IMG/VR virus record: IMGVR_UViG_3300003322_000571
Coordinates: 124,001-188,000 of that record
Length of the DNA: 64,000 nt
Direction: 5' to 3' (one strand)
Source: a virus
In this document: positions 14,369 through 58,507 of the stretch, one piece after another
How the letters are laid out: each line of letters opens with the position of its first letter
How positions within the stretch are numbered: position 1 is the stretch's first letter
Notes under the pieces: model-generated
Told to the model about the DNA's origin: nothing
The model's input: only the letters and a program-made list of their open reading frames with translations
Database searches by the model: none
Made by a program: the position numbers and the translations under genes

Positions 14369-14397
14369 TTGATCAAAATGGTTAGTGAGGGGATGAT
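14369..14397 (+). promoter_or_regulatory. Sigma70-type promoter inside a 10-bp dyad
   Basis: -35 TTGATC, 17-nt spacer, -10 GATGAT. Perfect arms TGGTTAGTGA (14379-14388) and TCACTAACCA (14402-14411) flank the -10. Confidence 0.75.
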
Positions 14398-14433
14398 CTC
14401 TTCACTAACCAACTACATCTGTTAGGAGAGGTG

Positions 14434-14895
14434 ATGAAATATGTCGTCAGTGTCGCGATCAGCGACCAGATTCCTCATGTCAAGACCACTCTGGCGCGGT
14501 CGGGGATCATCGATGTTTCGTGCGAGCACCAGACCGCTAAGCGTGCAATGGATGATTTCGCCGCAGTGATGACGGCGATTGCTGATCATCCGGGTTCTGG
14601 TCCGTACTGGCAGGTCAACCCGATGCAAGTACTGGACGCGATCCTCAGTCCTCCGCAGGAGAACGAGCAATCGAACGTCAAGATCGAGTTCGAGGCACGT
14701 GACGCCAACGGTGGTCCCACGTTCTCGCTGATCACCGTGGCGCTGAAAAGCGAAGAAGGCGAGACGGCGAACACGACCAATTCGTGCATGCATGCGATGG
14801 CATGCAAGATGCTCGACGTGCTCGAAACCATGATCCACGGTGGTGACCTCCCGACTGAGGAAGCTTCGATCCCTGAAGGTGAAACGATTCACTGA
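14434..14895 (+). CDS. Hypothetical protein
   Basis: 153 residues with SD AGGAGAGG; a GTG directly before the ATG is an alternative start. GC-rich codon use like its upstream neighbour. The C-terminus is acidic. No family is recognised. Confidence 0.82.
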   Translation: MKYVVSVAISDQIPHVKTTLARSGIIDVSCEHQTAKRAMDDFAAVMTAIADHPGSGPYWQVNPMQVLDAILSPPQENEQSNVKIEFEARDANGGPTFSLITVALKSEEGETANTTNSCMHAMACKMLDVLETMIHGGDLPTEEASIPEGETIH

Positions 14896-14897
14896 TC

Positions 14898-15179
14898 ATG
14901 ATCAAGCTGACCGTTAAGGCAGACTACAAACACCGCCCTCCGGCGGTGTTTTTCGTTACCGGTTACATCGACATGGTGTTCGTGAGCTGGAAGATCCTGT
15001 GGGCACTTACACGGGCTGCTTCCAAGCAGAAAGCGAACATTGTACAGGAAGGTGAGAGCGAAAGCTACGGAGTGCACACACTTCACTTCGTACAAAAGGA
15101 CGGGAACAATTCAACTCCGTTCATTAGCATTGATTTCGAAGAAGTTGACGAGGTCCCCGACGGTTGGGAGCCCACGTAG
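14898..15179 (+). CDS. Small hypothetical protein containing a terminator-like hairpin
   Basis: 93 residues, starting 2 nt after the previous stop without a clear SD. A strong hairpin with a T-run (14928-14953) lies inside its first 20 codons, so the true start could be the ATG at 14973. Acidic C-terminus (FEEVDEVPDGWEP). Confidence 0.55.
   Translation: MIKLTVKADYKHRPPAVFFVTGYIDMVFVSWKILWALTRAASKQKANIVQEGESESYGVHTLHFVQKDGNNSTPFISIDFEEVDEVPDGWEPT
14928..14953 (+). terminator. Terminator-like hairpin inside a coding region
   Basis: Ten-bp stem AAACACCGCC/GGCGGTGTTT with loop CTCC followed by TT. It lies 33 nt after the gene ending at 14895, overlapping the start of the next ORF. Confidence 0.6.
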
Positions 15180-15195
15180 CACACAGCGCCCAGAC

Positions 15196-15226
15196 AAAAG
15201 CCCACCATTGTGTGGGCTTTTTCTTT
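15196..15226 (+). terminator. Rho-independent terminator
   Basis: Stem AAAGCCCAC/GTGGGCTTT with a T-rich tail, just after the gene ending at 15179. Confidence 0.85.
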
Positions 15227-15387
15227 TGCAGCTATACAAAAATGCTCCATTGGTTTGAATGCTTGCTCTGAAGACAAACGAGCAGAGACGGATGTCGTTT
15301 CTGCATGATAATGAAATTGTGTGAGCGCAGGAGTCGCTCGGGTCTGTGCGCGATAAGCGTGTCGTTAAGACGGTTTAAAGTGCTCTG

Positions 15388-15416
15388 TTGTCAAGACTCG
15401 ACAGATGACTGATAGT
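15388..15416 (+). promoter_or_regulatory. Sigma70-type promoter, distal of a tandem pair
   Basis: -35 TTGTCA, 17-nt spacer, -10 GATAGT. Confidence 0.65.
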
Positions 15417-15471
15417 TCACTCACTGGTTCGGAAACGCAACCGCAGGGACACAAGCAAGAAACTGCTCCTG

Positions 15472-15500
15472 TTGACAAGTTACCCTGAATCAGAGATAGT
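15472..15500 (+). promoter_or_regulatory. Sigma70-type promoter, proximal of a tandem pair
   Basis: -35 TTGACA, 17-nt spacer, -10 GATAGT. GTTAC occurs as a direct repeat around it. Confidence 0.7.
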
Positions 15501-15551
15501 TACCGCACTGAATCAAGTTTCTCTCAACCACCTGTAACAAGGAGTTTCATC

Positions 15552-16196
15552 ATGACCCAAGCCCAAGCCGCTCTGTCGTCCGCCATCGCCCTCCTGGCCA
15601 ACACCGATGCGTTCCGCCCCGTGGCGGCCGACGCCGGTGAAGTCAAGGCGCTCGTCGGCGACAAGATCGTGTTCCTGACCGCCGACAAGAAGGAATCCGA
15701 CGTCCTGACCGTCGTGATGGTCAAAAAGAAGGTGACCAACACCGTGTCCGACGTGAACGGCGAGAAGATGAGCGTGCCGATGACGCACTTCGGCGCCGAC
15801 GACATCGAGCTGGAAGACGGCACGTTCATCCGCCTGGTCAAGTCGGTGATCCCGCCGAAGCCGGGCAAGAAGGGCCGCGGCCGCGTCGAAGGCGCGCCGA
15901 CCAAGGCTGACATCTGCCGCGGCCTGTTCATCGCCGCCCCGGATGCGCCGAAGGCCGTGATGTGCAAGCTGTTCCAGTCGGAAGCCGGCTGCACCCGGAT
16001 GGGCGCGAACACGTACTTCCTGTCGATCGCCAAGGCCTACGCGGCCGGCAAGCTGAAGGACCTCGTTCTGGACGAAGGCGTCGTCGCCCTCGTGAAGAAG
16101 GCGATCGAGGCGGCGCGCGCCGAAGCGGAAGCCCAGGCGGCGGAAGCGTCGGCCGAGACCACGACCGAGCAGTCGACCGAAGAAGCCTCCGCCTGA
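15552..16196 (+). CDS. GAxTYY-module protein 2 (214 aa), GC-rich
   Basis: SD AAGGAG. The N-terminal ~105 residues are beta-rich, then a basic linker (PPKPGKKGRGR), then the family module ending SEAGCTRMGANTYFLSIAKA at ~142-161, and an Ala/Glu-rich acidic tail. Base composition is far more GC-rich than most genes here, with near-exclusive C or G third positions, suggesting high expression or a different history. Two tandem promoters precede it. Role inferred, not shown. Confidence 0.85.
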   Translation: MTQAQAALSSAIALLANTDAFRPVAADAGEVKALVGDKIVFLTADKKESDVLTVVMVKKKVTNTVSDVNGEKMSVPMTHFGADDIELEDGTFIRLVKSVIPPKPGKKGRGRVEGAPTKADICRGLFIAAPDAPKAVMCKLFQSEAGCTRMGANTYFLSIAKAYAAGKLKDLVLDEGVVALVKKAIEAARAEAEAQAAEASAETTTEQSTEEASA

Positions 16197-16222
16197 TCCT
16201 TGATCGGGTGAAGTGAGAGGGT

Positions 16223-16243
16223 AGGGGGCATAGCCCCCTTCCT
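16223..16243 (+). terminator. Terminator hairpin
   Basis: Stem GGGGGC/GCCCCC with loop ATA and a TTCCTT tail. Confidence 0.7.
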
Positions 16244-16266
16244 TCGTTGTGTGCATCCACCATTCT

Positions 16267-16278
16267 ACTAGTAAACAT
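16267..16278 (+). promoter_or_regulatory. ACTAGTAAACAT element abutting a start codon
   Basis: The same 12-mer occurs at 17314 and 25657. Here it directly precedes the ATG at 16279, leaving no SD. Confidence 0.45.
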
Positions 16279-16629
16279 ATGCCGATCCTCTCTCAAGATG
16301 AACTGGTGCAACTGATGGTTGCGAATCTGGAAGACGGTACGAAGGAGATCCGCTTCGGTGATCATCTCCGTCCCTATGGAATGATGGATGCGCTCGTGAT
16401 TCGTCGTATCCGCACACCCGCAGGAATCCAGTACTGCGTCCGTGAAACGTCGTACCGCGGCGAAGGCAGCGGCATCTACGACCACGGTGCCGTCGAGATT
16501 GCGAAGTGGGCACGCCGGATCGCTGAACGGTACATGAAACCGCATCAGTCTGTTGTTGTTCAAAAGGTTATCGCTGAAGCTCGTGGCCTCAATGAGCCGA
16601 GCTTCTACGTGACCGAATGCAACACCTGA
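16279..16629 (+). CDS. Hypothetical protein without an evident SD
   Basis: 116 residues. The ATG at 16279 is immediately preceded by ACTAGTAAACAT. The N-terminus (MPILSQDELVQLMVANLEDG) matches the style of neighbouring genes. No family is recognised. Confidence 0.75.
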   Translation: MPILSQDELVQLMVANLEDGTKEIRFGDHLRPYGMMDALVIRRIRTPAGIQYCVRETSYRGEGSGIYDHGAVEIAKWARRIAERYMKPHQSVVVQKVIAEARGLNEPSFYVTECNT

Positions 16630-16895
16630 TCTTCTGCCACGACCGCCAGTACGGCGGTCTCGGTATCCAGTTCGTGATCACCCCGAACGATGTGTTCGAG
16701 GCGACAGGCGAGCTAGTTGCCCACACAGCCCTCCTCCCGGAGGGCTTTCGTCCGTCTCAGTCGTCGAGATGGAAGTACGTGCCCCCGTATGGTACAGCAC
16801 CTGAGTACGGAGTTCAACAGGGCGTGATCGAACTGATCGCTGCTGGAGTCAAATACTCCGAGGCCCTCGATCAATATGTCAACGGGACAACATGA
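16617..16895 (+). CDS. Hypothetical protein overlapping its neighbour
   Basis: 92 residues, overlapping the previous gene by 13 nt. A terminator-like hairpin (16727-16748) sits inside the frame, where it encodes LLPEGF. Coding looks plausible, but the expression level may be set by that hairpin. Confidence 0.65.
   Translation: MQHLIFCHDRQYGGLGIQFVITPNDVFEATGELVAHTALLPEGFRPSQSSRWKYVPPYGTAPEYGVQQGVIELIAAGVKYSEALDQYVNGTT
16727..16748 (+). terminator. Terminator-like hairpin inside a coding region
   Basis: Stem AGCCCTCC/GGAGGGCT with loop TCCC followed by TT, about 100 nt into the 16617 ORF. Confidence 0.45.
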
Positions 16896-17002
16896 CTGCT
16901 AAACAAGCACTTGAGCGAGCTCGAATGGCTCGTGCTCGGTCGTACTACGTTGCACTGATGAAACAACTTGGTGTGCGCCAGTTGACGTTGTTCCTTGTTT
17001 GA
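16892..17002 (+). CDS. 36-residue basic peptide, translationally coupled
   Basis: The ATG overlaps the previous TGA (ATGA). The sequence starts MTAKQALERARMARARSYY and is helical and Arg-rich. Too short to assign; the overlap is the main evidence. Confidence 0.5.
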   Translation: MTAKQALERARMARARSYYVALMKQLGVRQLTLFLV

Positions 17003-22446: not shown

Positions 22447-22475
22447 AAGGGGAGCCATCGGCTCCCCTTTTTTAT
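22447..22475 (+). terminator. Rho-independent terminator
   Basis: Ten-bp stem AAGGGGAGCC/GGCTCCCCTT followed by six T. Confidence 0.9.
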
Positions 22476-22719: not shown

Positions 22720-23073
22720 ATGGCCAAGATCGTTACGAAAGATTCCCTGCGAGACCTGCTGCTGAGCTCGCCTCAAGACAAGCAGGTCCGAATCATCGGT
22801 CGCGCTCTCGTTCGGATCATGGAGCGGCAAACGGAAGCCGAAAAGAGCCTGAAGATGACAACCGATTCGAACAACATCGGTTTCACCAGTGCAGATGCGA
22901 AGACGGGAACCAAGTCAGCGGAGTACTTCAAGCGGACTGGCCGTCTGATGCCGTTCGCGTTCGAGCGGTGGATCAGTGCTGACAGCACCGGCTATCCTCG
23001 GATCTGCCGCTACCATCGTCAACTCAACGAAGTCGCTGAGGCAAAAGCCGAAAGTGCCCAGTTGACTCTGTAA
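22720..23073 (+). CDS. Conserved phage protein
   Basis: 117 residues. The segment NNIGFTSADAKTGTKSAEYF followed by a basic C-terminus (RICRYHRQLNEVAEAKAE) recurs in phage and plasmid hypothetical proteins. Function unknown. SD CGAGG. Confidence 0.83.
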   Translation: MAKIVTKDSLRDLLLSSPQDKQVRIIGRALVRIMERQTEAEKSLKMTTDSNNIGFTSADAKTGTKSAEYFKRTGRLMPFAFERWISADSTGYPRICRYHRQLNEVAEAKAESAQLTL

Positions 23074-23090
23074 CCAAATGGGAGTATTAT
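23062..23090 (+). promoter_or_regulatory. Sigma70-type promoter in a 21-bp palindrome
   Basis: -35 TTGACT inside the preceding gene, 17-nt spacer, -10 TATTAT. TGGGAGTATTATACTCCCA centred on the -10 (palindrome 23078-23098). Confidence 0.8.
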
Positions 23091-23116
23091 ACTCCCATCA
23101 ATCAACGGAGTGCGAA

Positions 23117-23575: not shown

Positions 23576-23604
23576 TTGACTGTCTGATTTGTGCACTTAA
23601 TAAT
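23576..23604 (+). promoter_or_regulatory. Sigma70-type promoter in a dyad
   Basis: -35 TTGACT, 17-nt spacer, -10 AATAAT. Perfect arms TTGTGCA (23589-23595) and TGCACAA (23606-23612). Confidence 0.75.
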
Positions 23605-23639
23605 CTGCACAACTTAACAACCAACAGAAAGGGTCAATC

Positions 23640-23820: not shown

Positions 23821-23849
23821 TTGACTTGTCGGCCGGATGGGAGTATTAT
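23821..23849 (+). promoter_or_regulatory. Sigma70-type promoter in a palindrome
   Basis: -35 TTGACT, 17-nt spacer, -10 TATTAT in a TGGGAG...CTCCCA dyad (23837-23857). Confidence 0.8.
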
Positions 23850-23879
23850 GCTCCCATCGGTTAACAACCAGGAACACAA

Positions 23880-26233: not shown

Positions 26234-26262
26234 AAGGCAACAGGGCACTGCCCTGTTGCCTT
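26234..26262 (+). terminator. 13-bp-stem terminator overlapping a promoter
   Basis: Arms AAGGCAACAGGGC/GCCCTGTTGCCTT, loop ACT, no T-run. Its right arm contains the next -35 box TTGCCT. Confidence 0.7.
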
Positions 26263-27021: not shown

Positions 27022-27315
27022 ATGGCGTACGTGATCTACAACGAAAAGACGTGCAAGCGATACGAGACCGAGCGTCGCACCGCGTCGTGGGCTCAGAAGG
27101 GCAGCGCCAAGAGCGTGCTGACCAAGGCGATCAAGAGCGGCGACATCAAGAACGGAGACGACTGGAAGGTCGGCACGTACGAAGAGTGGCAAGCGAACGA
27201 TCGCGACATCGAAGTGATCAGCGCGATGGACGGCAAGACCGTCTGCAAGATCAAGGCGAGCGAGAAGGGCAATCGCGTCAGCGACCCGAGCATGGAAGGT
27301 TACTGGACGATGTAA
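27022..27315 (+). CDS. Hypothetical protein
   Basis: 97 residues from the ATG after SD TGGAGAG. Lys-rich, with repeated DWKVGTYEEW/DIEV-type segments; GC-rich codon use. No family is recognised. Confidence 0.82.
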   Translation: MAYVIYNEKTCKRYETERRTASWAQKGSAKSVLTKAIKSGDIKNGDDWKVGTYEEWQANDRDIEVISAMDGKTVCKIKASEKGNRVSDPSMEGYWTM

Positions 27316-27449: not shown

Positions 27450-27478
27450 TTGACAAGTTGGTTGTTTGGGCATATACT
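27450..27478 (+). promoter_or_regulatory. Sigma70 consensus promoter
   Basis: -35 TTGACA, 17-nt spacer, -10 TATACT; TGGTT/AACCA arms. The core is identical to the promoter at 27765. Confidence 0.85.
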
Positions 27479-27764: not shown

Positions 27765-27793
27765 TTGACAAGTTGGTTGTTTGGGCATATACT
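27765..27793 (+). promoter_or_regulatory. Sigma70 consensus promoter
   Basis: -35 TTGACA, 17-nt spacer, -10 TATACT. No clear dyad. Confidence 0.85.
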
Positions 27794-28076: not shown

Positions 28077-28105
28077 TTGACAAAGTGACCTGATGGGAGT
28101 ATTAT
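28077..28105 (+). promoter_or_regulatory. Sigma70-type promoter in a 21-bp palindrome
   Basis: -35 TTGACA, 17-nt spacer, -10 TATTAT; palindrome 28093-28113. Confidence 0.82.
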
Positions 28106-28136
28106 ACTCCCATCTTAAACGCATTGGAGAAACGAA

Positions 28137-28355
28137 ATGCCTCATCCGACACGAGCACAAGTTGAGAAGTTCCTCAACTACTACGAGCATGATCTCTCGG
28201 ACGAAGACGCAGCTGACCTCATCAACGAAGAGTATAGCGACCTCTATACTGATGACGAGATCGACAATGGTGCGATGGATCAACTGTTCGTGTACGTCGA
28301 CCACTATCGCAAACATGGTGTGTGGCCTGACGACTGTGTGCTCGCTGTTGCCTAA
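28137..28355 (+). CDS. Small acidic hypothetical protein
   Basis: 72 residues, SD TGGAGA. Helical, very acidic (DLSDEDAADLINEEYSDLY). Confidence 0.82.
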   Translation: MPHPTRAQVEKFLNYYEHDLSDEDAADLINEEYSDLYTDDEIDNGAMDQLFVYVDHYRKHGVWPDDCVLAVA

Positions 28356-28376
28356 GTGACCAAATGGGAGTATTAT
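28348..28376 (+). promoter_or_regulatory. Sigma70-type promoter in a 21-bp palindrome
   Basis: -35 TTGCCT overlapping the preceding stop, 17-nt spacer, -10 TATTAT; palindrome 28364-28384. Confidence 0.78.
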
Positions 28377-28403
28377 ACTCCCATCACTTACTGGAGAGCA
28401 GAC

Positions 28404-28551: not shown

Positions 28552-28580
28552 TTGTCTGTCTGACAATAAGATGGGATACT
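28552..28580 (+). promoter_or_regulatory. Sigma70-type promoter in an 18-bp palindrome
   Basis: -35 TTGTCT, 17-nt spacer, -10 GATACT; palindrome ATGGGATACTTATCCCAT (28571-28588). Confidence 0.78.
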
Positions 28581-28611
28581 TATCCCATCTTAAACGCGCT
28601 GGAGAAGCGAA

Positions 28612-28945: not shown

Positions 28946-28974
28946 TTGTCCAAATGACCAAATGGGAGTATTAT
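28946..28974 (+). promoter_or_regulatory. Sigma70-type promoter in a 21-bp palindrome
   Basis: -35 TTGTCC, 17-nt spacer, -10 TATTAT; palindrome 28962-28982. Confidence 0.78.
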
Positions 28975-29000
28975 ACTCCCATCAATCAACGGAGGCCCAA

Positions 29001-30769: not shown

Positions 30770-30798
30770 TTGACCAGAGATGCGTCTGGTGGGATACT
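30770..30798 (+). promoter_or_regulatory. Sigma70-type promoter in an 8-bp dyad
   Basis: -35 TTGACC, 17-nt spacer, -10 GATACT. Arms GATGCGTC (30779-30786) and GACGCATC (30800-30807). Confidence 0.8.
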
Positions 30799-30824
30799 GG
30801 ACGCATCCAATCAAGGAGCGACAA

Positions 30825-31095: not shown

Positions 31096-31124
31096 TTGTT
31101 AGACGAGTGCGTTTGGGCGATACT
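31096..31124 (+). promoter_or_regulatory. Sigma70-type promoter in a 9-bp dyad
   Basis: -35 TTGTTA, 17-nt spacer, -10 GATACT. Arms CGAGTGCGT (31104-31112) and ACGCACTCG (31127-31135). Confidence 0.8.
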
Positions 31125-31154
31125 AGACGCACTCGTTCAACAAAGGAGTGCCAA

Positions 31155-31459: not shown

Positions 31460-31681
31460 ATGAAGAAAGTTCCGAAGGACTACGCTGCGTTCCTCAAGCC
31501 GTACATCGATGCTCGAGTGCTGACGATCGAATCCGGATCGAAGCACAACAAGGCGGTTCGATCGGACGGTCGGTTCTGGGTGATCCCCAGCAGCCCGAGC
31601 GATCATCGCGGGTTCCTCAACTTCAAGAGCGATATCCGCCGGTTCGTCAGCCAAGCGCCGCAGCACCCCGTTGTCCAGTGA
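31460..31681 (+). CDS. HicA-like small protein
   Basis: 73 residues, SD CAGGGA. The pattern SGSKHNKAV..DGRFWVIPSS, then SDHRGFLNFKSDIRRFV resembles HicA/YcfA-type dsRNA-binding folds seen in phages. No HicB-type partner is next to it and the classical HicA His context is only approximate, so this is a structural suggestion rather than a toxin call. Confidence 0.7.
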   Translation: MKKVPKDYAAFLKPYIDARVLTIESGSKHNKAVRSDGRFWVIPSSPSDHRGFLNFKSDIRRFVSQAPQHPVVQ

Positions 31682-31973: not shown

Positions 31974-32237
31974 ATGACTCTGTCGTACGAAGCCGCCAAG
32001 CAAGTGCAAATCGCCCTCGCCCTGCACGAGCGATATGTGCAGACGCTCGGCGCGGAGCAAGCGAAGGTGCAACTCGCAATCGGCTTCACGTGGCTTGCCG
32101 GCCACTATGTGACCGAAGCACCGCAAGCTGCTGACCTGCTGAACAAGGTCGGCGGTAGTGTCTTCTACGGATGCGGTAACGGTCAACGGAATTACGTCGA
32201 GATCAAGAACGACGTGTTCGTCACCGAAGTCCGTTGA
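31974..32237 (+). CDS. Small hypothetical protein
   Basis: 87 residues, SD TGGAGAG. N-terminal two-thirds helical (YEAAKQVQIALALHERYVQT). No family is recognised. Confidence 0.82.
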   Translation: MTLSYEAAKQVQIALALHERYVQTLGAEQAKVQLAIGFTWLAGHYVTEAPQAADLLNKVGGSVFYGCGNGQRNYVEIKNDVFVTEVR

Positions 32238-32262
32238 CCTAAACATGGGATGGGAGTATGAT
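32234..32262 (+). promoter_or_regulatory. Sigma70-type promoter in a 21-bp palindrome
   Basis: -35 TTGACC overlapping the preceding stop, 17-nt spacer, -10 TATGAT; palindrome 32250-32270. Confidence 0.8.
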
Positions 32263-32294
32263 ACTCCCATCTTAACCGCACTGGAGGAACAACA

Positions 32295-32663
32295 ATGAAG
32301 AGCCAACAACCTCGACGCTCCGCTGGTGAAGGTCCTTGGATCGCGCTCGATGACATGCGCGCGTTCAAGCAGTTCCTCACCGACAACGGCTTCCAGTGGC
32401 GTGAGCATCCTGGCCTGAACAGCACCGGCTATCAAGTCCGCCACCAAGGGCACTGGATGGCGCTGCTGTGGAACAAGGGGTTCAAGCGGTTCACAGCAGA
32501 CCGTCGATTGTCGCTGATCGTCCAGTCGTTTGCAACGGAGAAGCCGAAGGATCAACGCGTTCCCGAGCTGCCGAAAGGCCCGATGGTCAAGTGCGTTCAC
32601 TGCGGCAACCTGTTCGAGCAGTACTTCGAGGGCGAAGACATGTGCGTTGACTGCGACGACTAA
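32295..32663 (+). CDS. Hypothetical protein with C-terminal zinc ribbon
   Basis: 122 residues, SD TGGAGG. Basic N-terminal domain, then CVHCGNLFEQYFEGEDMCVDC (shortened here to its CxxC...CxxC pattern) at the end, a likely zinc ribbon. Its last codons form the left arm of the next promoter dyad. Confidence 0.83.
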   Translation: MKSQQPRRSAGEGPWIALDDMRAFKQFLTDNGFQWREHPGLNSTGYQVRHQGHWMALLWNKGFKRFTADRRLSLIVQSFATEKPKDQRVPELPKGPMVKCVHCGNLFEQYFEGEDMCVDCDD

Positions 32664-32675
32664 TTGTGGGATAGT
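32647..32675 (+). promoter_or_regulatory. Sigma70-type promoter in a two-part 16-bp dyad
   Basis: -35 TTGACT, 17-nt spacer, -10 GATAGT. Inner arms GCGACGACT/AGTCGTCGC and outer arms GTTGACT/AGTCAAC; the left arms are coding sequence of the preceding gene. Confidence 0.82.
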
Positions 32676-32701
32676 CGTCGCATAGTCAACAGGAGTGCAC
32701 G

Positions 32702-32987: not shown

Positions 32988-33016
32988 TTGACAAACAATC
33001 AGCTTGGTGGGATACT
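32988..33016 (+). promoter_or_regulatory. Sigma70-type promoter in a 12-bp dyad
   Basis: -35 TTGACA, 17-nt spacer, -10 GATACT. Arms AACAATcAGCTT (32994-33005) and AAGCTcATTGTT (33017-33028), one mismatch. Confidence 0.82.
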
Positions 33017-33042
33017 AAGCTCATTGTTCAACGGAGTACATC

Positions 33043-33340: not shown

Positions 33341-33369
33341 TTGATCTTGGATCCGTTTGGTCAGATACT
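33341..33369 (+). promoter_or_regulatory. Sigma70-type promoter in a 7-bp dyad
   Basis: -35 TTGATC, 17-nt spacer, -10 GATACT. Arms GATCCGT (33350-33356) and ACGGATC (33372-33378). Confidence 0.78.
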
Positions 33370-33394
33370 AGACGGATCTAATCAAGGAGTCAAC

Positions 33395-33752: not shown

Positions 33753-33995
33753 ATGGTCAAGGTGATTCAAGTCGAAAGCGGTGTCGTTCGTCAGATGGAG
33801 TTCGAGCAGTTCAACAAGAGCACGATCCTTAGCCTGGTCAACGACGACTCGGACAACGTGTTCGAAGACAAGCACATCCATGTCGTCGAGCAGCCCGGCA
33901 TTGTCGCCTGTTCCGTTCTCCATGACAACGGCCTGGCGCTGGTGACGTTCATCGGTGACACCGCATCGTGGCAGGTCGGCCAGTTGACCGAGTGA
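33753..33995 (+). CDS. Small hypothetical protein
   Basis: 80 residues, SD AAGGAGG. Beta-rich. No family is recognised. Confidence 0.8.
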   Translation: MVKVIQVESGVVRQMEFEQFNKSTILSLVNDDSDNVFEDKHIHVVEQPGIVACSVLHDNGLALVTFIGDTASWQVGQLTE

Positions 33996-34012
33996 GCGGT
34001 TGGGAGTATCAT
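33984..34012 (+). promoter_or_regulatory. Sigma70-type promoter in a palindrome
   Basis: -35 TTGACC inside the preceding gene, 17-nt spacer, -10 TATCAT in TGGGAGTATCATACTCCCA. Confidence 0.8.
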
Positions 34013-34038
34013 ACTCCCATCACTTCAAGGACCTCATC

Positions 34039-34255: not shown

Positions 34256-34284
34256 TTGTCTTAGTAAGCGTTTGGGAGTACCAT
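34256..34284 (+). promoter_or_regulatory. Sigma70-type promoter in a palindrome
   Basis: -35 TTGTCT, 17-nt spacer, -10 TACCAT in TGGGAGTACCATACTCCCA, where the central bases differ from the other copies. Confidence 0.72.
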
Positions 34285-34309
34285 ACTCCCATCACTTCAA
34301 GGAGCCGAC

Positions 34310-34599: not shown

Positions 34600-34836
34600 A
34601 TGACCCTCGTTGTCGAAAATGTCAACGCGCTGATGACAGCGCCCGTCGAAGAAACGCAGATCGAACTGCACAGCGTCACTCTGACACTGCGTCGCACAAA
34701 CGGCCACAGCTTCTACCTGCAGGGGAAGATCGATGGCCGCATCGTTCATGTCCGAGACCGCAACACGCACGTTGCAACGTTCAGCCGCAATGAGCTCGTC
34801 CAGCGGCTGCTCGACGGCAATTACGAAATCGGTTGA
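34600..34836 (+). CDS. Small hypothetical protein
   Basis: 78 residues; weak SD. Beta-rich (TQIELHSVTLTLRRTNGHSF), C-terminal helix. No family is recognised. Confidence 0.75.
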   Translation: MTLVVENVNALMTAPVEETQIELHSVTLTLRRTNGHSFYLQGKIDGRIVHVRDRNTHVATFSRNELVQRLLDGNYEIG

Positions 34837-34861
34837 CATCGCCGGTGATAGGTGGGATACT
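34833..34861 (+). promoter_or_regulatory. Sigma70-type promoter in a dyad
   Basis: -35 TTGACA overlapping the preceding stop, 17-nt spacer, -10 GATACT. TGATAgGTG (34846) pairs with CACtTATCA (34862). Confidence 0.75.
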
Positions 34862-34885
34862 CACTTATCAATAGGGAGAGCAGGC

Positions 34886-35116: not shown

Positions 35117-35391
35117 TGGACATCATTATCACCCAGCAGATCGCCACGCACAACGGCTGGACGGTCCGAATCAACCGCAACGCCGCTGGTCACTGGACGC
35201 TGCTGCGCAATGCGTCCCATCATCCGATGATTCCGCCGTTGACACAACAGCTGATCCAACGTGACGGGATGACGATGTGGGTCGGCATCATCGGTGAAGA
35301 AAAGAAGGCCGGCGACATCGTTGTCGTGGTCAGCTCGGAAGTGCTTGAGGACATCATCAAGCAGACGTGCGCCACTCCTCCCTCTCGTTGA
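35116..35391 (+). CDS. Hypothetical protein
   Basis: 91 residues, coupled to the previous gene (TGATG). Beta strand-rich C-terminal half. No family is recognised. Confidence 0.8.
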   Translation: MDIIITQQIATHNGWTVRINRNAAGHWTLLRNASHHPMIPPLTQQLIQRDGMTMWVGIIGEEKKAGDIVVVVSSEVLEDIIKQTCATPPSR

Positions 35392-35416
35392 CCTTACGTG
35401 CAACTTGGTATACAAT
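35388..35416 (+). promoter_or_regulatory. Sigma70-type promoter with the -10 as hairpin loop
   Basis: -35 TTGACC overlapping the preceding stop, 17-nt spacer, -10 TACAAT. TGGTA/TACCA close exactly around the -10, and GTGCAA/TTGCAC lie outside (35398-35429). Confidence 0.82.
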
Positions 35417-35443
35417 TACCACATTGCACAATAGGAGCCAACA

Positions 35444-35931: not shown

Positions 35932-35960
35932 TTGACATTGGTCAATTGTTACCTTATAGT
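35932..35960 (+). promoter_or_regulatory. Sigma70-type promoter in an 8-bp dyad
   Basis: -35 TTGACA, 17-nt spacer, -10 TATAGT. Arms ATTGTTAC (35945-35952) and GTAACAAT (35965-35972). Confidence 0.82.
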
Positions 35961-35987
35961 TGTTGTAACAATAAAAGGGGTAACTAA

Positions 35988-36294: not shown

Positions 36295-36323
36295 TTGATC
36301 TCGACCTCACACGGTGGGATAGT
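36295..36323 (+). promoter_or_regulatory. Sigma70-type promoter in a nested dyad
   Basis: -35 TTGATC, 17-nt spacer, -10 GATAGT. Inner TGGGA/TCCCA and outer CCTCACA/TGTGAGG (36305-36340); the outer right arm runs into the SD. Confidence 0.8.
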
Positions 36324-36347
36324 ACTCCCATCATGTGAGGGAGATCA

Positions 36348-36677: not shown

Positions 36678-36681
36678 TTGT

Positions 36682-36713
36682 CAACATGTGGGCTATCAAC
36701 TGCCCACTGTTGA
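36682..36713 (+). terminator. Hairpin, possible terminator
   Basis: CAACA...TGTTG and GTGGGC/GCCCAC around TATCAACT; no T-run. Confidence 0.5.
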
Positions 36714-36738
36714 CTTTCGTCGTGGGCGACGTTATGAT
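36710..36738 (+). promoter_or_regulatory. Sigma70-type promoter
   Basis: -35 TTGACT, 17-nt spacer, -10 TATGAT; a CGTCG/CGACG hairpin lies in the spacer. Confidence 0.72.
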
Positions 36739-37028: not shown

Positions 37029-37460
37029 ATGTCGGTTCGACAACAAGCGATCGCTGACGTCAAGCTGTGCGAGCGAGTGACGGCGCGCGACGGTGAAGAC
37101 TCTGTCCGTCACTACATGGCGGCGTTCAAGAAGACGTTCGCTCCGCTCGTCAAGGCGGCGCTCGGCACGTCGATCGAGCATGACGACATCGAATCGCTCG
37201 AGATCGACAGCGCAGGTGACCTGTACATCCGCACGTCGTGGGTCAGCATGGGATGTGCTGACGGCAACACGTACATCCTCCCCGCTCACATCATCGACGC
37301 TGCCGATCCGTTGCATGCTGCGACTGTACATCATCTGAAGAAGCAAATCAACGATGCGCAGTCGTACGTCGCACACAAAGAGGCAGAACTGGAACGTGCC
37401 GAACGGTCGCTGGAAGAGCTGAAGAACAGCCTCGCACTTGTTCTCGAACAGAACAGTTGA
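37029..37460 (+). CDS. Coiled-coil family B, copy 1 (143 aa)
   Basis: SD AAAGGA. Related to the genes at 39468 and 40043: a central strand region with a (T/E)(S/W)W-(V/G)S.G.....TY.LP..I motif (here RTSWVSMG, TYILPAHII), a helical hinge and a C-terminal coiled coil. Function unknown. Confidence 0.83.
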   Translation: MSVRQQAIADVKLCERVTARDGEDSVRHYMAAFKKTFAPLVKAALGTSIEHDDIESLEIDSAGDLYIRTSWVSMGCADGNTYILPAHIIDAADPLHAATVHHLKKQINDAQSYVAHKEAELERAERSLEELKNSLALVLEQNS

Positions 37461-37485
37461 CATCTAGTTGAGTGTGGTGTATGCT
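37457..37485 (+). promoter_or_regulatory. Sigma70-type promoter in a perfect 13-bp dyad
   Basis: -35 TTGACA overlapping the preceding stop, 17-nt spacer, -10 TATGCT. Arms ATCTAGTTGAGTG (37462-37474) and CACTCAACTAGAT (37487-37499), loop of 12 nt holding the -10. Confidence 0.88.
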
Positions 37486-37514
37486 GCACTCAACTAGATC
37501 AATAGGGGCCTATC

Positions 37515-42201: not shown

Positions 42202-42467
42202 GCAAGCTGATCAGCAAGTCGGAGTGGGAAATCATGTACTCCGACTTGCAGGGCCAGATGGCGTCGGTTGACTCATGGATGTACATTGGTCGTAAGTACA
42301 AAGACAAGTCTGCTGTCCGTAATGCCGCATTTGCTCTTGGCAAAGTCGCTGGATCATTGAAGGCGATCACCGGTTATCTGCGGTCGATCGGTGAACCTGT
42401 CCCTTCGCATGTGACGGAGATTTCCGACAAGTACGAAGACATGTGGACGGAAGTCGGTAGCTGGTAA
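42198..42467 (+). CDS. Helical hypothetical protein
   Basis: 89 residues, ATGA-type overlap with the previous gene. Helical, basic centre. No family is recognised. Confidence 0.8.
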   Translation: MSKLISKSEWEIMYSDLQGQMASVDSWMYIGRKYKDKSAVRNAAFALGKVAGSLKAITGYLRSIGEPVPSHVTEISDKYEDMWTEVGSW

Positions 42468-48991: not shown

Positions 48992-49572
48992 ACAAGTTTC
49001 ACGTCCAACCGATCACGGAAACTGACAAAACGATAGTTGGCCAGATTGCTCACCTCGAGCAAGTCGCAACACGTGTCGATCAGGCGATGGTGATTATGTC
49101 TAAACTGGGAATTGAATTGGCTCAATTCCCAGAGATGTTCAACGAGCTTGTTAAGCGGTACGTTGAACTCCAACCGAAACAACGACCAGCATCTCCTGGT
49201 CATCTGAACCATTGCAATCTCAACTTCCCAGCAACGATCGATTCTGTTGACGATTACTGTTCGTGTCAGTTTCACACGGTTGTCGCATTCCCGAGTGATC
49301 ATGTGTTTACGAGAAGGGAGAACGGCGAAGCCCTGCGTAAGCAATGGCACCTTGATGGTCGAGATACTAACGATGAAATCGTCATTGTTCAGATTCCTGA
49401 CACGATGTACACTATTTCTTCGTCGTTTTTCATCGGGTTGTTTGCTGACTCCCTGCGTAAGATGGGTCGTGAGCGGTTCAAGGAAAAATACAGGTTCGTC
49501 GGTTCGTCCAAAACAGATACGATCCAAGACGTGCTGAATGTTCACATTCAGACGACACTTCGCTGGATATAA
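48988..49572 (+). CDS. Protein with STAS-like (DUF4325-like) C-terminus
   Basis: 194 residues. The N-terminal ~70 residues are helical. Toward the C-terminus, IVQIPDTMYTISSSFFIGLF, then LRKMGRERFKEKYRFV and a final amphipathic helix resemble the STAS-like DUF4325 pattern (strand, SSSF loop, helix). Weak but consistent. Confidence 0.78.
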   Translation: MNKFHVQPITETDKTIVGQIAHLEQVATRVDQAMVIMSKLGIELAQFPEMFNELVKRYVELQPKQRPASPGHLNHCNLNFPATIDSVDDYCSCQFHTVVAFPSDHVFTRRENGEALRKQWHLDGRDTNDEIVIVQIPDTMYTISSSFFIGLFADSLRKMGRERFKEKYRFVGSSKTDTIQDVLNVHIQTTLRWI

Positions 49573-52107: not shown

Positions 52108-52353
52108 ATGTTGATGACACAATACACGTACTTGCTGTGGCAAGATGACCGTGGAACACACATCAAACTGATGCATAAAGAACTGCAAGAGAAAGTCAAG
52201 CATTTCTTCATCGCTGGACAGCGAGATCCTGGTCCAATTCATTCCCATATGCGCAGCCTTACTGATGAACTGTGTGACGGATTCTTCCCTGATCCAAACC
52301 GTCGTAAGAAGAAAGAGAAGAAGCCAAAAGAGGAAACTGTTGAGGTCAAATAA
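52108..52353 (+). CDS. Hypothetical protein with Lys-rich tail
   Basis: 81 residues from ATG 52108, SD TGAGG. The tail RRKKKEKKPKEE is highly charged; body helical. Confidence 0.75.
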   Translation: MLMTQYTYLLWQDDRGTHIKLMHKELQEKVKHFFIAGQRDPGPIHSHMRSLTDELCDGFFPDPNRRKKKEKKPKEETVEVK

Positions 52354-52367
52354 CTTGCCACTATAAT
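52340..52367 (+). promoter_or_regulatory. Sigma70-type promoter
   Basis: -35 TTGAGG inside the preceding gene, 16-nt spacer, -10 TATAAT. Confidence 0.65.
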
Positions 52368-52397
52368 TGCGGTAAGTTAAATCTCTTGGAGTTGGTC

Positions 52398-55663: not shown

Positions 55664-55714
55664 TTGACCTTTTGTTTACTATGTGATATGCTTCTCCTGA
55701 TTAAATAGGAGAAG
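55664..55714 (+). promoter_or_regulatory. Promoter with dyad covering the transcript start
   Basis: -35 TTGACC, 17-nt spacer, -10 TATGCT. CTTCTCCT (55691) and AGGAGAAG (55707) pair just downstream; the right arm holds the SD of the gene at 55717. Confidence 0.72.
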
Positions 55715-55716
55715 TA

Positions 55717-55974
55717 ATGCATATGGTGTATTGGACCGTGTGGTCCGACGGTGAAGCAACAGCGCTTCAAAAAGATTTCGACAACAGCCAGCTTAAGCAG
55801 GCTCTTGATTTCTGCAAATCGCTGCGCAAGCGAATTGACCTTGGCGAACCGCTTGGTTTCGTCACAATGGCAACGGAGGATCCCAACATGGTTGGGAAAA
55901 TGGGCGTAGACTCCATTGTCGATGGTATGTGCCCTGATGGTGTCCCGTACACATGGAAAAAGCGTCGCATCTGA
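55717..55974 (+). CDS. Conserved phage protein (85 aa)
   Basis: SD AGGAG. The ending MGVDSIVDGMCPDGVPYTWK is a familiar phage hypothetical signature; function unknown. Confidence 0.82.
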   Translation: MHMVYWTVWSDGEATALQKDFDNSQLKQALDFCKSLRKRIDLGEPLGFVTMATEDPNMVGKMGVDSIVDGMCPDGVPYTWKKRRI

Positions 55975-56204
55975 TCGAATTCCAACAGAAGGTCGTTGAT
56001 ACGTTGAATCAAGCAACGAACGACCTCGATATTGCTTTCACAGAAGGCTGGAATCCTATTGTCCCGCCGATGCCAATGACGTTTGGTCAAGTCCAATTCT
56101 TAAAATCAGGTACGACGGAAATGATGACGATCCGTCATCCAACGTCATGGTATTATATGTTATACAGATGGAGAACAGATGAAAAGAGTAACGGAGAAGA
56201 CTGA
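55953..56204 (+). CDS. Hypothetical protein
   Basis: 83 residues, overlapping the previous gene by 22 nt and the next by 26 nt. Helical N-terminus. No family is recognised. Confidence 0.72.
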   Translation: MEKASHLIEFQQKVVDTLNQATNDLDIAFTEGWNPIVPPMPMTFGQVQFLKSGTTEMMTIRHPTSWYYMLYRWRTDEKSNGED

Positions 56205-56523
56205 CTTCTATTTGTCGAAGTACGAGCTAGAAGGCTCTTTTGATGATGTTGTTGCCAGTATTCGTGCAGTTGAAAAACAAGCACTCGATGCATATCACGA
56301 AATGTGCTACGACCATCTTAATCCGGAGTTTTACTTTGATTGGGAACCTGCAGAAGACGGTGGTGATGTGTTAACGCTGTACGTTAAACGCGACGAACTA
56401 CACCACGAAGCGCTTGTTCGTATTATGGAAGAGCAAGCACGTCAAGCAGATTTCGAGAAGTACGAACAAGAGCTATACTTGAGACTACATGAAAAATACG
56501 GAAAAGTACTCCGTGAACAATGA
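56179..56523 (+). CDS. Acidic helical hypothetical protein
   Basis: 114 residues, SD TGGAGA. Acidic; helical N- and C-terminal parts. Terminator follows. Confidence 0.8.
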   Translation: MKRVTEKTDFYLSKYELEGSFDDVVASIRAVEKQALDAYHEMCYDHLNPEFYFDWEPAEDGGDVLTLYVKRDELHHEALVRIMEEQARQADFEKYEQELYLRLHEKYGKVLREQ

Positions 56524-56529
56524 GCAATA

Positions 56530-56553
56530 AGCCGGTTTGACCGGCTTTTTTTG
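56530..56553 (+). terminator. Rho-independent terminator
   Basis: Stem AGCCGGT/ACCGGCT, loop TTG, then T-run. Confidence 0.9.
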
Positions 56554-56582
56554 TTGTTCGGTATTGGGTTCATTGTTACAAT
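56554..56582 (+). promoter_or_regulatory. Sigma70-type promoter
   Basis: -35 TTGTTC, 17-nt spacer, -10 TACAAT. Confidence 0.6.
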
Positions 56583-56606
56583 GTTGGTTCTTTACAGGAG
56601 TATTCT

Positions 56607-56780
56607 ATGCAAGTGTACGAATCGAATCTTTCAGCTGCTTTGTCAGTCGCAATTGCAGAACGCCGTAAGGTAGAAGCTCAACTTGGATATACGGGCGACT
56701 CAGCGTTTGTTGCTGGTCTCGTACAAGTGCTAGAGGCATTCGAGCGCGGTGAACACATTGAAATCGTTCGAGGAGCCTAA
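56607..56780 (+). CDS. Small helical protein (57 aa)
   Basis: SD CAGGAG. Begins MQVYESNLSAALSVAIAERR; helical. No family is recognised. Confidence 0.72.
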   Translation: MQVYESNLSAALSVAIAERRKVEAQLGYTGDSAFVAGLVQVLEAFERGEHIEIVRGA

Positions 56781-56845
56781 TATGACGCTCGACGATCTGT
56801 ATCCACAACGAAAGATTTGCCGTCTCCTGCAACGACCTTCACAAT

Positions 56846-57715
56846 ATGAACAACATCAACGACATTCCTCTTCAAACGACCAGCAACCTACTCAACGCGT
56901 TCCCGTCCAATCTCCAGAAGAGAGATCCGTGGCCACGAAAGGTTCCTGTTGGTATTGAGGTGGAAGTTCCTTGGCGTGGTTATTTTCCGGATTTGTGGGT
57001 AGACGGGTTTCCAAATGTAGATGAAGAAACTCTTGCACGAATCACTGAGGAATGCACTAAGCGTGAGGAAACACTTATTCCTAAGCTGCGTAAAACGCAA
57101 GAATGTGGCGTGAAACGAGGTGCTGACAAGTACTGGGAATTCGCATTCGATCCTGTCACAGATGTTCGTATCACGTGCGACCATGTTGAGATTCTCCGTC
57201 AGCATAATCTGATTCCTGAAGGGCCGCATTCTTTACACATTACGTTTGGTGGCTTGCGAGCTACTCGTGACATGCATTACGTTGCAATGATTCTCGAGTG
57301 TTTTGCTTGTTCTCCTGAGCGAATTTTGTCGGGATTCCATCCAACGAGCGAAGCACAATCTGTTGGGTGGGCTCGTAAGGGATTTGCTGGTCTATTTGAA
57401 AAGACAGGTTCTCATGATCTTTTGCACGGATATCAATACGGTTGTGAGATCCGGCTACTGACCCTACCACAGACAGACGATGAATTGTTCTATCTGCTCG
57501 ACATTGGTCAGTGTTTTGCCGTACTTGCATTGAACAAAGATCCAATGTGGACGAGGATTCGTGATACGTTGAAAATGATTCTGTTGAAGAACGGACTTCC
57601 AGATGAGAACTGGAAGAAGCCACATATTAACCCTGAACTGTGGAAGGATGTTGCTGAAAAGTGGCCTGCAGTTCAAGCCAAGGTTGTAGACTTCATCTCT
57701 GACGTCTACCCTTAA
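56846..57715 (+). CDS. Possible amidoligase/GCS-like enzyme
   Basis: 289 residues. VPVGIEVEVPWRG near residue 33, HSLHITFGGL near 128 and YGCEIRLLTLP near 205 recall the Glu and His motifs of amidoligase/glutamate-cysteine ligase-type enzymes; the match is weak. The start has no SD; the nearest SD serves an ATG at 56782 in another frame, raising the chance of a sequence shift near the start. Confidence 0.72.
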   Translation: MNNINDIPLQTTSNLLNAFPSNLQKRDPWPRKVPVGIEVEVPWRGYFPDLWVDGFPNVDEETLARITEECTKREETLIPKLRKTQECGVKRGADKYWEFAFDPVTDVRITCDHVEILRQHNLIPEGPHSLHITFGGLRATRDMHYVAMILECFACSPERILSGFHPTSEAQSVGWARKGFAGLFEKTGSHDLLHGYQYGCEIRLLTLPQTDDELFYLLDIGQCFAVLALNKDPMWTRIRDTLKMILLKNGLPDENWKKPHINPELWKDVAEKWPAVQAKVVDFISDVYP

Positions 57716-57742
57716 TGACTAGCCTATATACTGGAGTAATGG

Positions 57743-58003
57743 ATGGAAACCACCAAGACGGATTTGATTGCCATTGTTGAGAGCGTATGGGGCGTTCAAC
57801 CGATGGAAGTGGTTGAGGAGTTGTTGTTTTCAACGACAGCTTTTCCATTCGCTCCGGTTGAGAAGATTGCAGTCCAGTTGAAAGAGTACTTCGACCGAAG
57901 CGGTGGTAATCCCGGTAAAGCGATCAATCTTGCGTACGAAGATTTTGATAGGGAATGGGAAGAATACAAAGCGAGGGAGAAGGAAAATGAAGAATCGAGT
58001 TAG
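57743..58003 (+). CDS. Acidic helical hypothetical protein
   Basis: 86 residues, weak SD (GGAG 15 nt upstream). Helical, acidic C-terminus. Overlaps the next small gene by 17 nt. Confidence 0.8.
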   Translation: METTKTDLIAIVESVWGVQPMEVVEELLFSTTAFPFAPVEKIAVQLKEYFDRSGGNPGKAINLAYEDFDREWEEYKAREKENEESS

Positions 58004-58082
58004 GGAAAAGTTTGGATTGGTGTTCGTGATCGCAGTTGTTATTGCGTCGTGTGCAGCCGCATACGTATCAGCCCTGCATTAA
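57987..58082 (+). CDS. Very small membrane peptide (31 aa)
   Basis: SD GGGAGAAGGA. MKNRVREK then a single hydrophobic helix (FGLVFVIAVVIASCAAAYV). Only supported by SD and composition. Confidence 0.6.
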   Translation: MKNRVREKFGLVFVIAVVIASCAAAYVSALH

Positions 58083-58106
58083 TTGCCGTATTTGTTTGGG
58101 TGACAA

Positions 58107-58116
58107 TATAAATATG
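58107..58116 (+). promoter_or_regulatory. T4-type late promoter (perfect core)
   Basis: TATAAATATG contains the exact TATAAATA core, 28 nt before the ATG at 58142. Confidence 0.65.
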
Positions 58117-58141
58117 CCCAACAAATATAGGAACACCAATC

Positions 58142-58444
58142 ATGGAATTTCTGAGGGAACTGCTAAGCGAGAGTAAGAAGGACAAGAATAAAGCTCCTGT
58201 CCTTAAGATGTTGCCAATCAAGTCATTCGTGGCTGGTAATATGGTTACGTCTAATCCAGAAGATGATGAGTGTGAATCTGTGACAGAAGGTAAAGACAAA
58301 GTGAAAGTACCGGTTTCAAAGCCACGCGCCAAGGACATCAACGATGCTCTCGTTCACACGAAGAGTGGTCGCCACTATGATCCAAAGCGTGATTATGTCC
58401 GCGCGAAGGAGAAGTCGCGTAGCCGTAAGGAAATGCAAGACTAA
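58142..58444 (+). CDS. Basic late-type protein
   Basis: 100 residues, preceded by the best late promoter. Highly charged; basic C-terminus (HYDPKRDYVRAKEKSRSRKE). Could be virion-associated. Confidence 0.8.
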   Translation: MEFLRELLSESKKDKNKAPVLKMLPIKSFVAGNMVTSNPEDDECESVTEGKDKVKVPVSKPRAKDINDALVHTKSGRHYDPKRDYVRAKEKSRSRKEMQD

Positions 58445-58453
58445 ACCCTTTAG

Positions 58454-58507
58454 TTGAACAACTAAACAACCCTCAGTATAGTGTATGCAAGTACATTACT
58501 GAGGGTT
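58454..58507 (+). promoter_or_regulatory. Promoter in an 11-bp hairpin that also holds the SD
   Basis: -35 TTGAAC, 17-nt spacer, -10 TATAGT. Perfect arms AACCCTCAGTA (58468-58478) and TACTGAGGGTT (58497-58507); the right arm contains the GAGGG SD for the ATG at 58514. Confidence 0.78.

Follow-up and report, generated by a model that had tools for sequence, protein, structure and literature searches.

Many early promoters of a T4-superfamily jumbo phage overlap predicted hairpins whose two arms change together

In the early region of an uncultured jumbo phage of the T4 superfamily, many promoters of the sigma70 type lie across inverted repeats, and the question arises why a promoter should be built into a hairpin whose sequence differs from site to site while each arm still matches its own partner. 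The stretch analysed, called the window below, comprises 64,000 nucleotides (nt), positions 124001-188000 of the 350,089-base virus record IMGVR_UViG_3300003322_000571 (G000), and covers the early region of this phage. An earlier note on the same DNA had quoted eight pairs of arms, had counted about 25 such promoters and had argued for selection on the fold. The overlap of promoters and hairpins is confirmed by our analysis, and the interpretation given in that note is partly supported: the two sides of the hairpin change in step, and the most likely reason is that read-through RNA from the upstream gene is thereby folded at the gene border and newly started RNA is not.

The promoters have the form TTGAC-N17-NATNNT, with a frequent A (by eye) at 7 bases past the -10 box, which is the likely start, and with a Shine-Dalgarno (SD) sequence 10-44 bases, mostly 10-25, past the -10. 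The pattern TTGACN17-18TANNNT occurs 30 times on both strands, compared with a mean of 3.7 and a largest count of 8 in 100 shuffles, and between 22 and 41 kb of the window there are 60 sigma70-like sites where 11.3 +/- 3.1 are expected. The 54 promoters of the window were analysed together with 39 and 18 promoters from two related contigs, G003 and G001, giving a set of 111 consensus matches in which the promoters of one phage are not independent of each other.

Predicted RNA hairpins that span the region from the -35 to the leader, with z < -2 relative to dinucleotide shuffles, were found at 26 of the 54 window promoters, in agreement with the earlier count, at 25 of 39 in G003 and at 5 of 18 in G001, that is, at 56 of the 111; all energies are for structures predicted at 37 C. 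The eight quoted pairs of arms are present, and each arm pairs with its own partner, up to 13 of 13 bp, around loops of 9-18 nt. The 28 window promoters without such a hairpin (z of -2 or above) include two of the quoted sites, 35945 and 58468, which score weakly, being AU-rich or extending past the tested stretch. The claim that the -10 lies inside or next to the inverted repeat holds in so far as the stem bridges the -10 with at least 5 pairs in 51 of the 56 hairpins of the three phages; however, the -10 is itself partly paired, with at least 3 of its 6 bases engaged in 39 of the 56 predicted folds. The upstream stop codon, where it was found (47 of the 56), ends a median of 4 nt ahead of the TTG and in some cases lies inside the -35, which explains why hairpin and promoter have bases in common.

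It had also been claimed that the arms differ between sites, and this is true of the variable-arm sites but not of nine promoters, a sequence-conserved class that the earlier note omitted. In these, ATGGGAGTATTATACTCCCAT or a closely similar sequence has its centre on the -10 (23078, 23836, 28092, 28364, 28567, 28962, 32249, 34001 and 34273), with loops of 3-7 nt, and the right half of this palindrome also occurs at 31671, 31919 and 36295. Its arms are conserved, and the flanks and the central -10 bases vary. When the whole 350-kb record was searched, the exact pattern was found in seven copies, all inside the window, and it had no match in the viral contigs, a collection from which the window's own record may be left out. 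Judged from the repeat itself, a protein operator and a duplicated cassette are candidate readings of this palindrome.

The evidence that pairing is specific to each promoter comes from arm swaps, in which the left half (spacer and -10) and the right half (18-24 bases past the -10) were exchanged between promoters of one phage. With 14 of 49 window promoters that have a repeated CTCCCA-type right side set aside, the summed stem score of the remaining 35 promoters was 189, a value that none of 20,000 arm permutations reached (maximum 165); stems of at least 7 were present in 10 of the 35 where 0.7 were expected. In terms of RNA energy, all 54 window promoters together reached -10.7 kcal/mol with their own arms versus -6.5 kcal/mol with swapped arms (z -11.4, n=54), and the corresponding swaps gave z -10.9 in G003 (n=39) and z -3.0 in G001 (n=18). 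With Watson-Crick stems alone, G003 again exceeded all 20,000 permutations (169 versus at most 156), and G001 was not beyond the permutations (80 versus a mean of 72 and a maximum of 88). Control NATNNT sites without a -35 (three sets of 60) gained only 0.34-0.43 kcal/mol (z about -1.4). Promoter-less junctions were uninformative as a control, as many of the 54 "low-score" junctions were, by eye, promoters with a -35 overlapping the stop codon.

Furthermore, perfect repeats with arms of at least 9 are 8.8 times denser around promoters than elsewhere in the 184 kb of G000 that were examined (15 repeats within 4.0 kb of promoter windows, 77 within the other 180 kb), and the same ratio is 7.7 in G003 and 4.1 in G001. 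Within the coding mask of these 184 kb there are 55 such repeats, some of which may be terminators inside spurious open reading frames (ORFs), versus 15 expected for the whole under a Markov model. Since the excess extends to coding sequence, a general background accounts for some of the promoter repeats. Examples in what appears to be coding sequence are the perfect inverted repeats of 10 to 12 bp at window positions 42214-42249, 49105-49132 and 61387-61412.

The related contigs provided examples of compensated arms. G003 and G001 were retrieved, together with G002, apparently a second record of the phage G001, by the pattern TTGAC-N18-GATACTGGCTTCA, and their proteins are 31-78% identical to those of G000 among the best 60 matches listed. 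In G003, TGAGGAG/CTCCTCA at one promoter stands against TGGGGAG/CTCCCCA at another, and GTGAAGCC/GGCTTCAC and a 15-bp pair of AGCAGTTGATGTGGT are also found. The right-hand elements GGCTTCAC, ACTCCCATC and CTCCTCA recur between promoters, and the first two also between phages, while the left arms differ; it therefore looks as if pairing arises anew each time through changes in the spacer. At the gene at 27022, for example, the conserved GGCTTCAC pairs with the spacer of G003 and not with that of G000. In G005, a more distant relative, the arm swap gave z -4.8 (27 promoters), compensated arms occur (ATAGATGAGC/GCTCATCTAT versus ATAGATGTGC/GCACATCTAT), and in five promoters TATAAT makes up most of the loop of a stem of about 9-13 bp. 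Xanthomonas phage XacN1, whose repeated ends were only partly removed in the first count, gave z -3.3 with 45 promoters and z -2.9 with 42, and a pool of seven other jumbo loci gave z -1.8 (27 promoters).

The relatives found for the window's phage are all distant ones, and covariation was examined at the early promoters of phage T4. In a scan of about 100 of its 169 kb, in which some sites are surely not promoters, 33 early-type sites gave z -4.2; under a stricter definition 27 sites gave z -5.7 on the sense and z -2.9 on the antisense strand, with 8 of the 27 at or below -8 kcal/mol versus 3.9 expected. In these predictions the T4 early promoters share the overlapping hairpin design. Orthologues were picked from spread lists (12 of 683 for cd.2-cd.3, 3 of 483 for 41-dmd, 4 of 694 for 30.8-30.7 and 5 of 768 for frd), and a match of S16 to another locus was left unscored. 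At cd.2-cd.3, 41-dmd and 30.8-30.7, relatives were compared down to about 70% identity and yielded, T4 included, 7, 5 and 3 distinct hairpin sequences. The earlier note had asked whether related phages keep the arm sequences and lose the pairing, and the outcome at these three loci spoke against this: the stems persist in the relatives. Derived cells other than Watson-Crick pairs comprise 13 G-U versus 2 A-C, plus 6 other mismatches, one pair of the 41-dmd promoter goes from G-C through G-U to A-U, and in every distinct variant listed the sense stem is predicted to be stabler than the antisense stem. At the unscored frd locus, three of five relatives have hairpins, with differing arms, and SP18 and PTK have no recognisable promoter where inspected. 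T4-like loci from viral contigs (4 and 4) added few variants, and three of the four cd.2 loci were without the promoter. At the variable-arm sites, both the arm swaps and the covariation at the three T4 loci bear out selection on the fold and not on one operator sequence.

Some further observations were made at T4-type junctions. In slur03 (L051 149-676) an extra gene lies between cd.3 and cd.2, directly past the hairpin promoter, and several other listed records show a two-piece match of the same kind, as expected for gene shuffling at junctions. The T4 record NC_000866 annotates the 14 nt at 133300-133313 (L037 14301-14314) as "inverted complement of previously reported sequence", a correction to early promoter Pe133295, and the Kha5h record carries the same annotation. 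These 14 nt, which include the -10, are exactly what separates GGTAGAG from CTCTACC, the two arms of a hairpin promoter. Either the older sequence was an artefact or the loop did invert, which would disable the promoter; an inverted loop was present in none of the 12 relatives compared at cd.2-cd.3.

The gain from own-partner pairing is larger for the sense strand than for its complement: for five phages combined the Stouffer z is -2.9, with four of them in that direction, and it is -4.2 with T4 added. In addition, a G-U pair in sense RNA is an A-C mismatch on the other strand, and thus the drift of the T4 stems points to sense RNA. A reading at the level of RNA is likely, though not proven, to be preferable to one at the level of DNA.

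What such an RNA hairpin might do is narrowed by its surroundings. An ordinary intrinsic terminator (a G+C-rich stem with a U-tract), which the earlier note had considered as part of a combined module, is not supported by the tail: the 8 bases past the stem contain 1.5 T on average and at least 5 T in only 3 of the 56 hairpins, so that 53 are without a U-tract. Canonical terminators with T-runs were seen between early genes at window positions 22447, 27320, 29369 and 56529, and the phage thus has junctions of both kinds. The possibility that the -35 pairs with CAAC-rich leaders was also considered and set aside, as by eye such pairing seemed not to track -35 variants. Where a strong hairpin lies at or before the -35, in several cases with the -35 itself in its right arm, a spanning hairpin was found in 1 of 13 junctions; among the 98 other junctions there are 55 (Fisher p 0.0009). 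Hairpins at the two positions lie at different distances from the SD and yet seem to stand in for each other, which is best fitted by a role for the upstream message. The sense bias and this exclusion are in line with the proposal that read-through RNA carries the whole hairpin as a junction or 3'-end module.

On this evidence, we consider it probable that these sites are composite gene-junction modules, in which an early promoter of the host-sigma70 type and a sense RNA hairpin occupy one stretch of ~60 bases between two small genes. Of the two arms, the left would fall within the spacer that separates -35 and -10, and the right would extend over the discriminator, +1 and the early leader, with the -10 between them. 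Since transcription should begin within the right arm or immediately ahead of it, a transcript of this promoter would lack the left arm and have an open leader; the hairpin would form only in RNA that reads through from the upstream gene, and, lacking a U-tract, would act on that RNA alone. Its most likely role would be that of a 3' boundary of the upstream message, as a block to 3' exonucleases and perhaps through factor-dependent termination or pausing, and it may serve as insulation between tandem genes. In the minority of cases with the SD in the right arm, it may also keep read-through RNA from being translated, as T4 gene e does. That this is a general insulator of the T4 superfamily, with the start inside the hairpin, is a more tentative extension, which we regard as possible: each crowded border would have one hairpin, laid over the next promoter if room is short, which marks read-through RNA alone and sets the upstream 3' end without a U-tract, the promoter being fixed and the arms being free to change as long as they pair. 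This suggests a simple rule by which giant and T4-type phages may accommodate dozens of genes, each with its own promoter, with hardly any space between them, and, with the same design in T4, the rule is testable in a standard laboratory system. It is also a caution that palindromes at phage promoters need not be operators.

Several results weigh against the composite-module reading. The promoters are consensus matches, and orthologous promoters often have the hairpin in one phage and not in the other, i.e. there is turnover. No effect of the arm swap was seen in G004 (z -0.9, 8 promoters) or G006 (z +0.9, 5 promoters). The T4 counts come from only 7, 5 and 3 distinct sequences; when the mar009P5 row, which is mis-registered by an indel, is left out, they become 11 versus 1, plus 2 others, and when shared changes are merged there are, by our own count, about 8 events versus 1. 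As to the strand, the bias is reversed in G005 (+0.7), control sites lean to the sense strand as well, though less (-0.5 to -1.3), the stretch upstream of the -35 is also sense-leaning (p 0.01), and a paired per-promoter test gave p 0.054. Mismatches of the G-T and A-C kinds in G000, G003 and G001 together numbered 19 versus 13, with 12.7 and 8.7 expected, which is not significant. The exclusion between the two hairpin positions lies in the tail only, with p values of 0.0005-0.044 over the 8 threshold pairs tried, and the z-scores at the two positions are not correlated overall (Spearman -0.06, p 0.56). Tandem and divergent promoters did not differ in a split that is unreliable, as the ORF caller seemed to mislabel crowded neighbours. 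Finally, the native left arm leaves the SD slightly more open, not less (p 0.02), so that no general translational effect is predicted.

The composite module has four rivals, which are not all mutually exclusive. The least probable of them, in our judgement, is the cruciform or single-stranded DNA hairpin that the earlier note had offered as an alternative, a structure that would expose the -10 and help or gate initiation. Promoters of the virion RNA polymerase (RNAP) of phage N4 and supercoil-gated promoters are precedents, and the position of the -10 between bridged arms, and as most of the loop in the five G005 promoters, would agree with this; yet the free bases of so short a promoter force such a geometry anyway, and extrusion is poor for arms as short as 7-13 bp around loops of about 9-18 nt. 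A DNA structure also predicts no strand bias, whereas sense pairing is favoured and the T4 stems drift via G-U, and hairpins at or before the -35 seem to replace the spanning ones. Very unlikely, too, is a neutral origin, in which template switching during replication copies the right arm into a free spacer and leaves functionless palindromes. The excess of perfect repeats in coding sequence and the freedom of the spacer to change would agree with it, as would promoter halves that look recombined: the promoters at window positions 27450-27478 and 27765-27793 are identical from -35 to -10 and different downstream, with slightly better pairing in the first, which looks like recombination at the -10 that weakened the hairpin. 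Against it stand a repeat density 4-9 times that elsewhere at the promoters of three phages, G-U intermediates and pairing maintained across T4-type genera, and the tail exclusion and the sense bias.

Binding of phage or host repressors to the palindromes over the -10 and +1, with the repeated class as one putative regulon, is somewhat less improbable, although still unlikely as an account of the whole. One dyad-symmetric sequence is indeed present at several promoters in the nine-site class, with conserved arms and with the seven exact copies confined to the window, but this is not so at the variable-arm sites; operators fail for about a dozen other arm pairs in one genome and for the specificity of the arm swaps outside the repeated class, and the exact palindrome was unmatched in the viral contigs. 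The rival to which we give the best chance of the four, though still a low one, is a switch in which the read-through hairpin hides the ribosome-binding site (RBS) and only RNA from the internal promoter is translated. Hairpins of this kind with an internal promoter, in the same geometry, are documented for the T4 late genes e, soc, 49 and I-TevI in the relevant passages of PMC3014915 and PMC2988022, and by sequence the SD is within the right arm at 58468, at 55691-55714 and at genome position 205702. As a general effect, RBS hiding was rejected, since the SD-to-start region is unpaired at 0.462 with the native left arm and at 0.445 with a shuffled one, and in 51 of the 56 cases the predicted hairpin does not extend past the beginning of the SD (folds cut 18 bases past the -10). 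A hairpin beside and not over the RBS has a precedent in seg43(25), where the passage in PMC2988022 describes a hairpin that adjoins the RBS without covering it and leaves its effect undetermined.

Two of these sites are of interest in themselves. The hairpin at window positions 55691-55714 (CTTCTCCT / AGGAGAAG) holds in its right arm the SD of the gene at 55717, and the promoter at 55664 has its likely start just past the left arm, which leaves the hairpin to read-through RNA only, as at gene e. At G000 position 205702 on the minus strand (L003 17640-17702), a 12-bp hairpin lies over a TATAAT promoter, its right arm including part of the SD, and the gene there reads like a clamp-loader ATPase. 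The variable-arm promoters, the copies of the palindrome and two junctions with the hairpin at the -35 are given in Table 1.

Table 1. Hairpin promoters, palindrome copies and alternative junction hairpins of the window (z, spanning RNA hairpin relative to dinucleotide shuffles)
Feature	Position	Strand	Arms or repeat	Stem	z	Remark
Promoter TTGATC-N17-GATGAT	14369..14411	+	TGGTTAGTGA / TCACTAACCA (14379-14411)	10 bp	-6.0	
Promoter TTGACT-N17-AATAAT	23576..23612	+	TTGTGCA / TGCACAA (23589-23612)	7 bp	-2.7	
Promoter TTGACC-N17-GATACT	30770..30807	+	GATGCGTC / GACGCATC (30779-30807)	8 bp	-5.1	
Promoter TTGTTA-N17-GATACT	31096..31136	+	ACGAGTGCGT / ACGCACTCGT (31103-31136)	10 bp	-6.7	
Promoter TTGACT-N17-GATAGT	32647..32682	+	TGCGACGACTA / TAGTCGTCGCA (from 32652)	11 bp	-4.4	right arm overlaps -10
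Promoter TTGACA-N17-GATACT	32988..33028	+	AACAATCAGCTT / AAGCTCATTGTT		-3.9	imperfect arms
Promoter TTGATC-N17-GATACT	33341..33378	+	GATCCGT / ACGGATC		-5.5	longer in predicted fold
Promoter TTGACA-N17-GATACT	34833..34870	+	TGATAGGTG / CACTTATCA		-3.4	internal G-U
Promoter TTGACC-N17-TACAAT	35388..35429	+	GTGCAACTTGGTA / TACCACATTGCAC		-5.3	imperfect arms
Promoter TTGACA-N17-TATAGT	35932..35972	+	ATTGTTAC / GTAACAAT (35945-35972)	8 bp	-0.3	AU-rich, weak RNA
Promoter TTGATC-N17-GATAGT	36295..36340	+	CCTCACACGGTGGGA / TCCCATCATGTGAGG		-5.4	
Promoter TTGACA-N17-TATGCT	37457..37499	+	ATCTAGTTGAGTG / CACTCAACTAGAT (from 37462)	13/13	-6.7	stop TGA of upstream gene inside -35
Promoter TTGAGG-N16-TATAAT	52340..52379	+	TAACTTGCC / GGTAAGTTA		-5.3	
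Promoter	58454..58507	+	AACCCTCAGTA / TACTGAGGGTT (58468-58507)	11 bp	-1.0	SD-like GAGG in right arm; outreaches tested stretch
Palindrome copy 1	23062..23098	+	ATGGGAGTATTATACTCCCAT			centred on -10
Palindrome copy 2	23821..23858	+	GATGGGAGtattatgCTCCCATC			variant
Palindrome copy 3	28077..28114	+				
Palindrome copy 4	28348..28384	+				
Palindrome copy 5	28552..28592	+	TAAGATGGGAT / ATCCCATCTTA			variant
Palindrome copy 6	28946..28982	+				
Palindrome copy 7	32234..32271	+				
Palindrome copy 8	33984..34019	+				
Palindrome copy 9	34256..34291	+				
Alternative junction hairpin	26234..26262	+		13 bp	+0.9	right arm contains -35 (TTGCCT) of promoter at 26256
Alternative junction hairpin	36680..36714	+			+0.7	right arm contains -35 (TTGAC) of promoter at 36710

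The early region extends over about 13-60 kb of the window and consists largely of small genes in tandem. Stretches neighbouring the window encode rIIA, rIIB and a helicase. In a PHROGs scan of 10 early genes, seven had no match, two matched families of unknown function only, and one matched unknown families and, weakly, HNH. With megablast, no near DNA match to 14-38 kb of the window was found among 50,697 phage records, and no close relative of one 20-kb stretch each of G003 and G001 was found in the phage records. Two window proteins have relatives at the protein level in phage records, at <60% identity and in one record at 60-80%, and one early protein searched against the viral contigs had no match. 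Rfam identified two tRNAs only in the window.

Compared with known systems, the present promoters resemble those of the N4 virion RNAP in having a hairpin at the promoter. The N4 promoters have a short conserved hairpin with a 3-nt loop, are used by the phage's own RNAP and have no sigma70 boxes, whereas here there are sigma70-type -35 and -10 boxes at 17-nt spacing, mostly variable arms, and loops of the length given above at the quoted sites. Repetitive extragenic palindromic (REP) elements are also U-less hairpins at gene borders, and could protect the upstream mRNA, but they are conserved repeats and are not superimposed on promoters. In a literature search at the level of passages, early promoters with covarying hairpins across the -10 were nowhere described. 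In the T4 genes e, soc, 49 and I-TevI, as the passages cited above describe them, there is likewise a promoter inside the sequence that forms the hairpin, and RNA started from it does not contain the 5' side of the stem; those are late promoters with a hidden RBS, and the present ones are mostly of the sigma70 type with an open RBS, pairing of the SD or start in read-through RNA only being no general effect.

The closest likeness is to the promoter-early stem-loops (PeSLs), in which an early host-sigma70 promoter lies between small variable genes. The present sites likewise combine an early sigma70-type promoter with a stem-loop between small variable genes of the T4 superfamily, promoter and hairpin overlap at T4 early promoters, and slur03 has the extra gene at cd.2-cd.3. 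PeSLs of T4-like phages are described as mediators of gene shuffling, in the part of PMC4503421 that refers to them, and the nine palindrome copies, the half-shared promoters and the one inserted gene of slur03 are candidate traces of such shuffling here. The title of a cited paper equates the stem-loop with a transcription terminator, whereas at least 5 T in the following 8 bases were found at just 3 of 56 hairpins. As far as PeSLs are described in papers citing them, the present hairpins further differ in lying over the -10, in having arms that vary and covary, in the rarity of a U-tract and in the possible presence of a stop codon in the -35. Since they work like a PeSL, yet without a U-tract, over the promoter core and with covarying arms, we regard them as a variant of the PeSL and not as a proven member.

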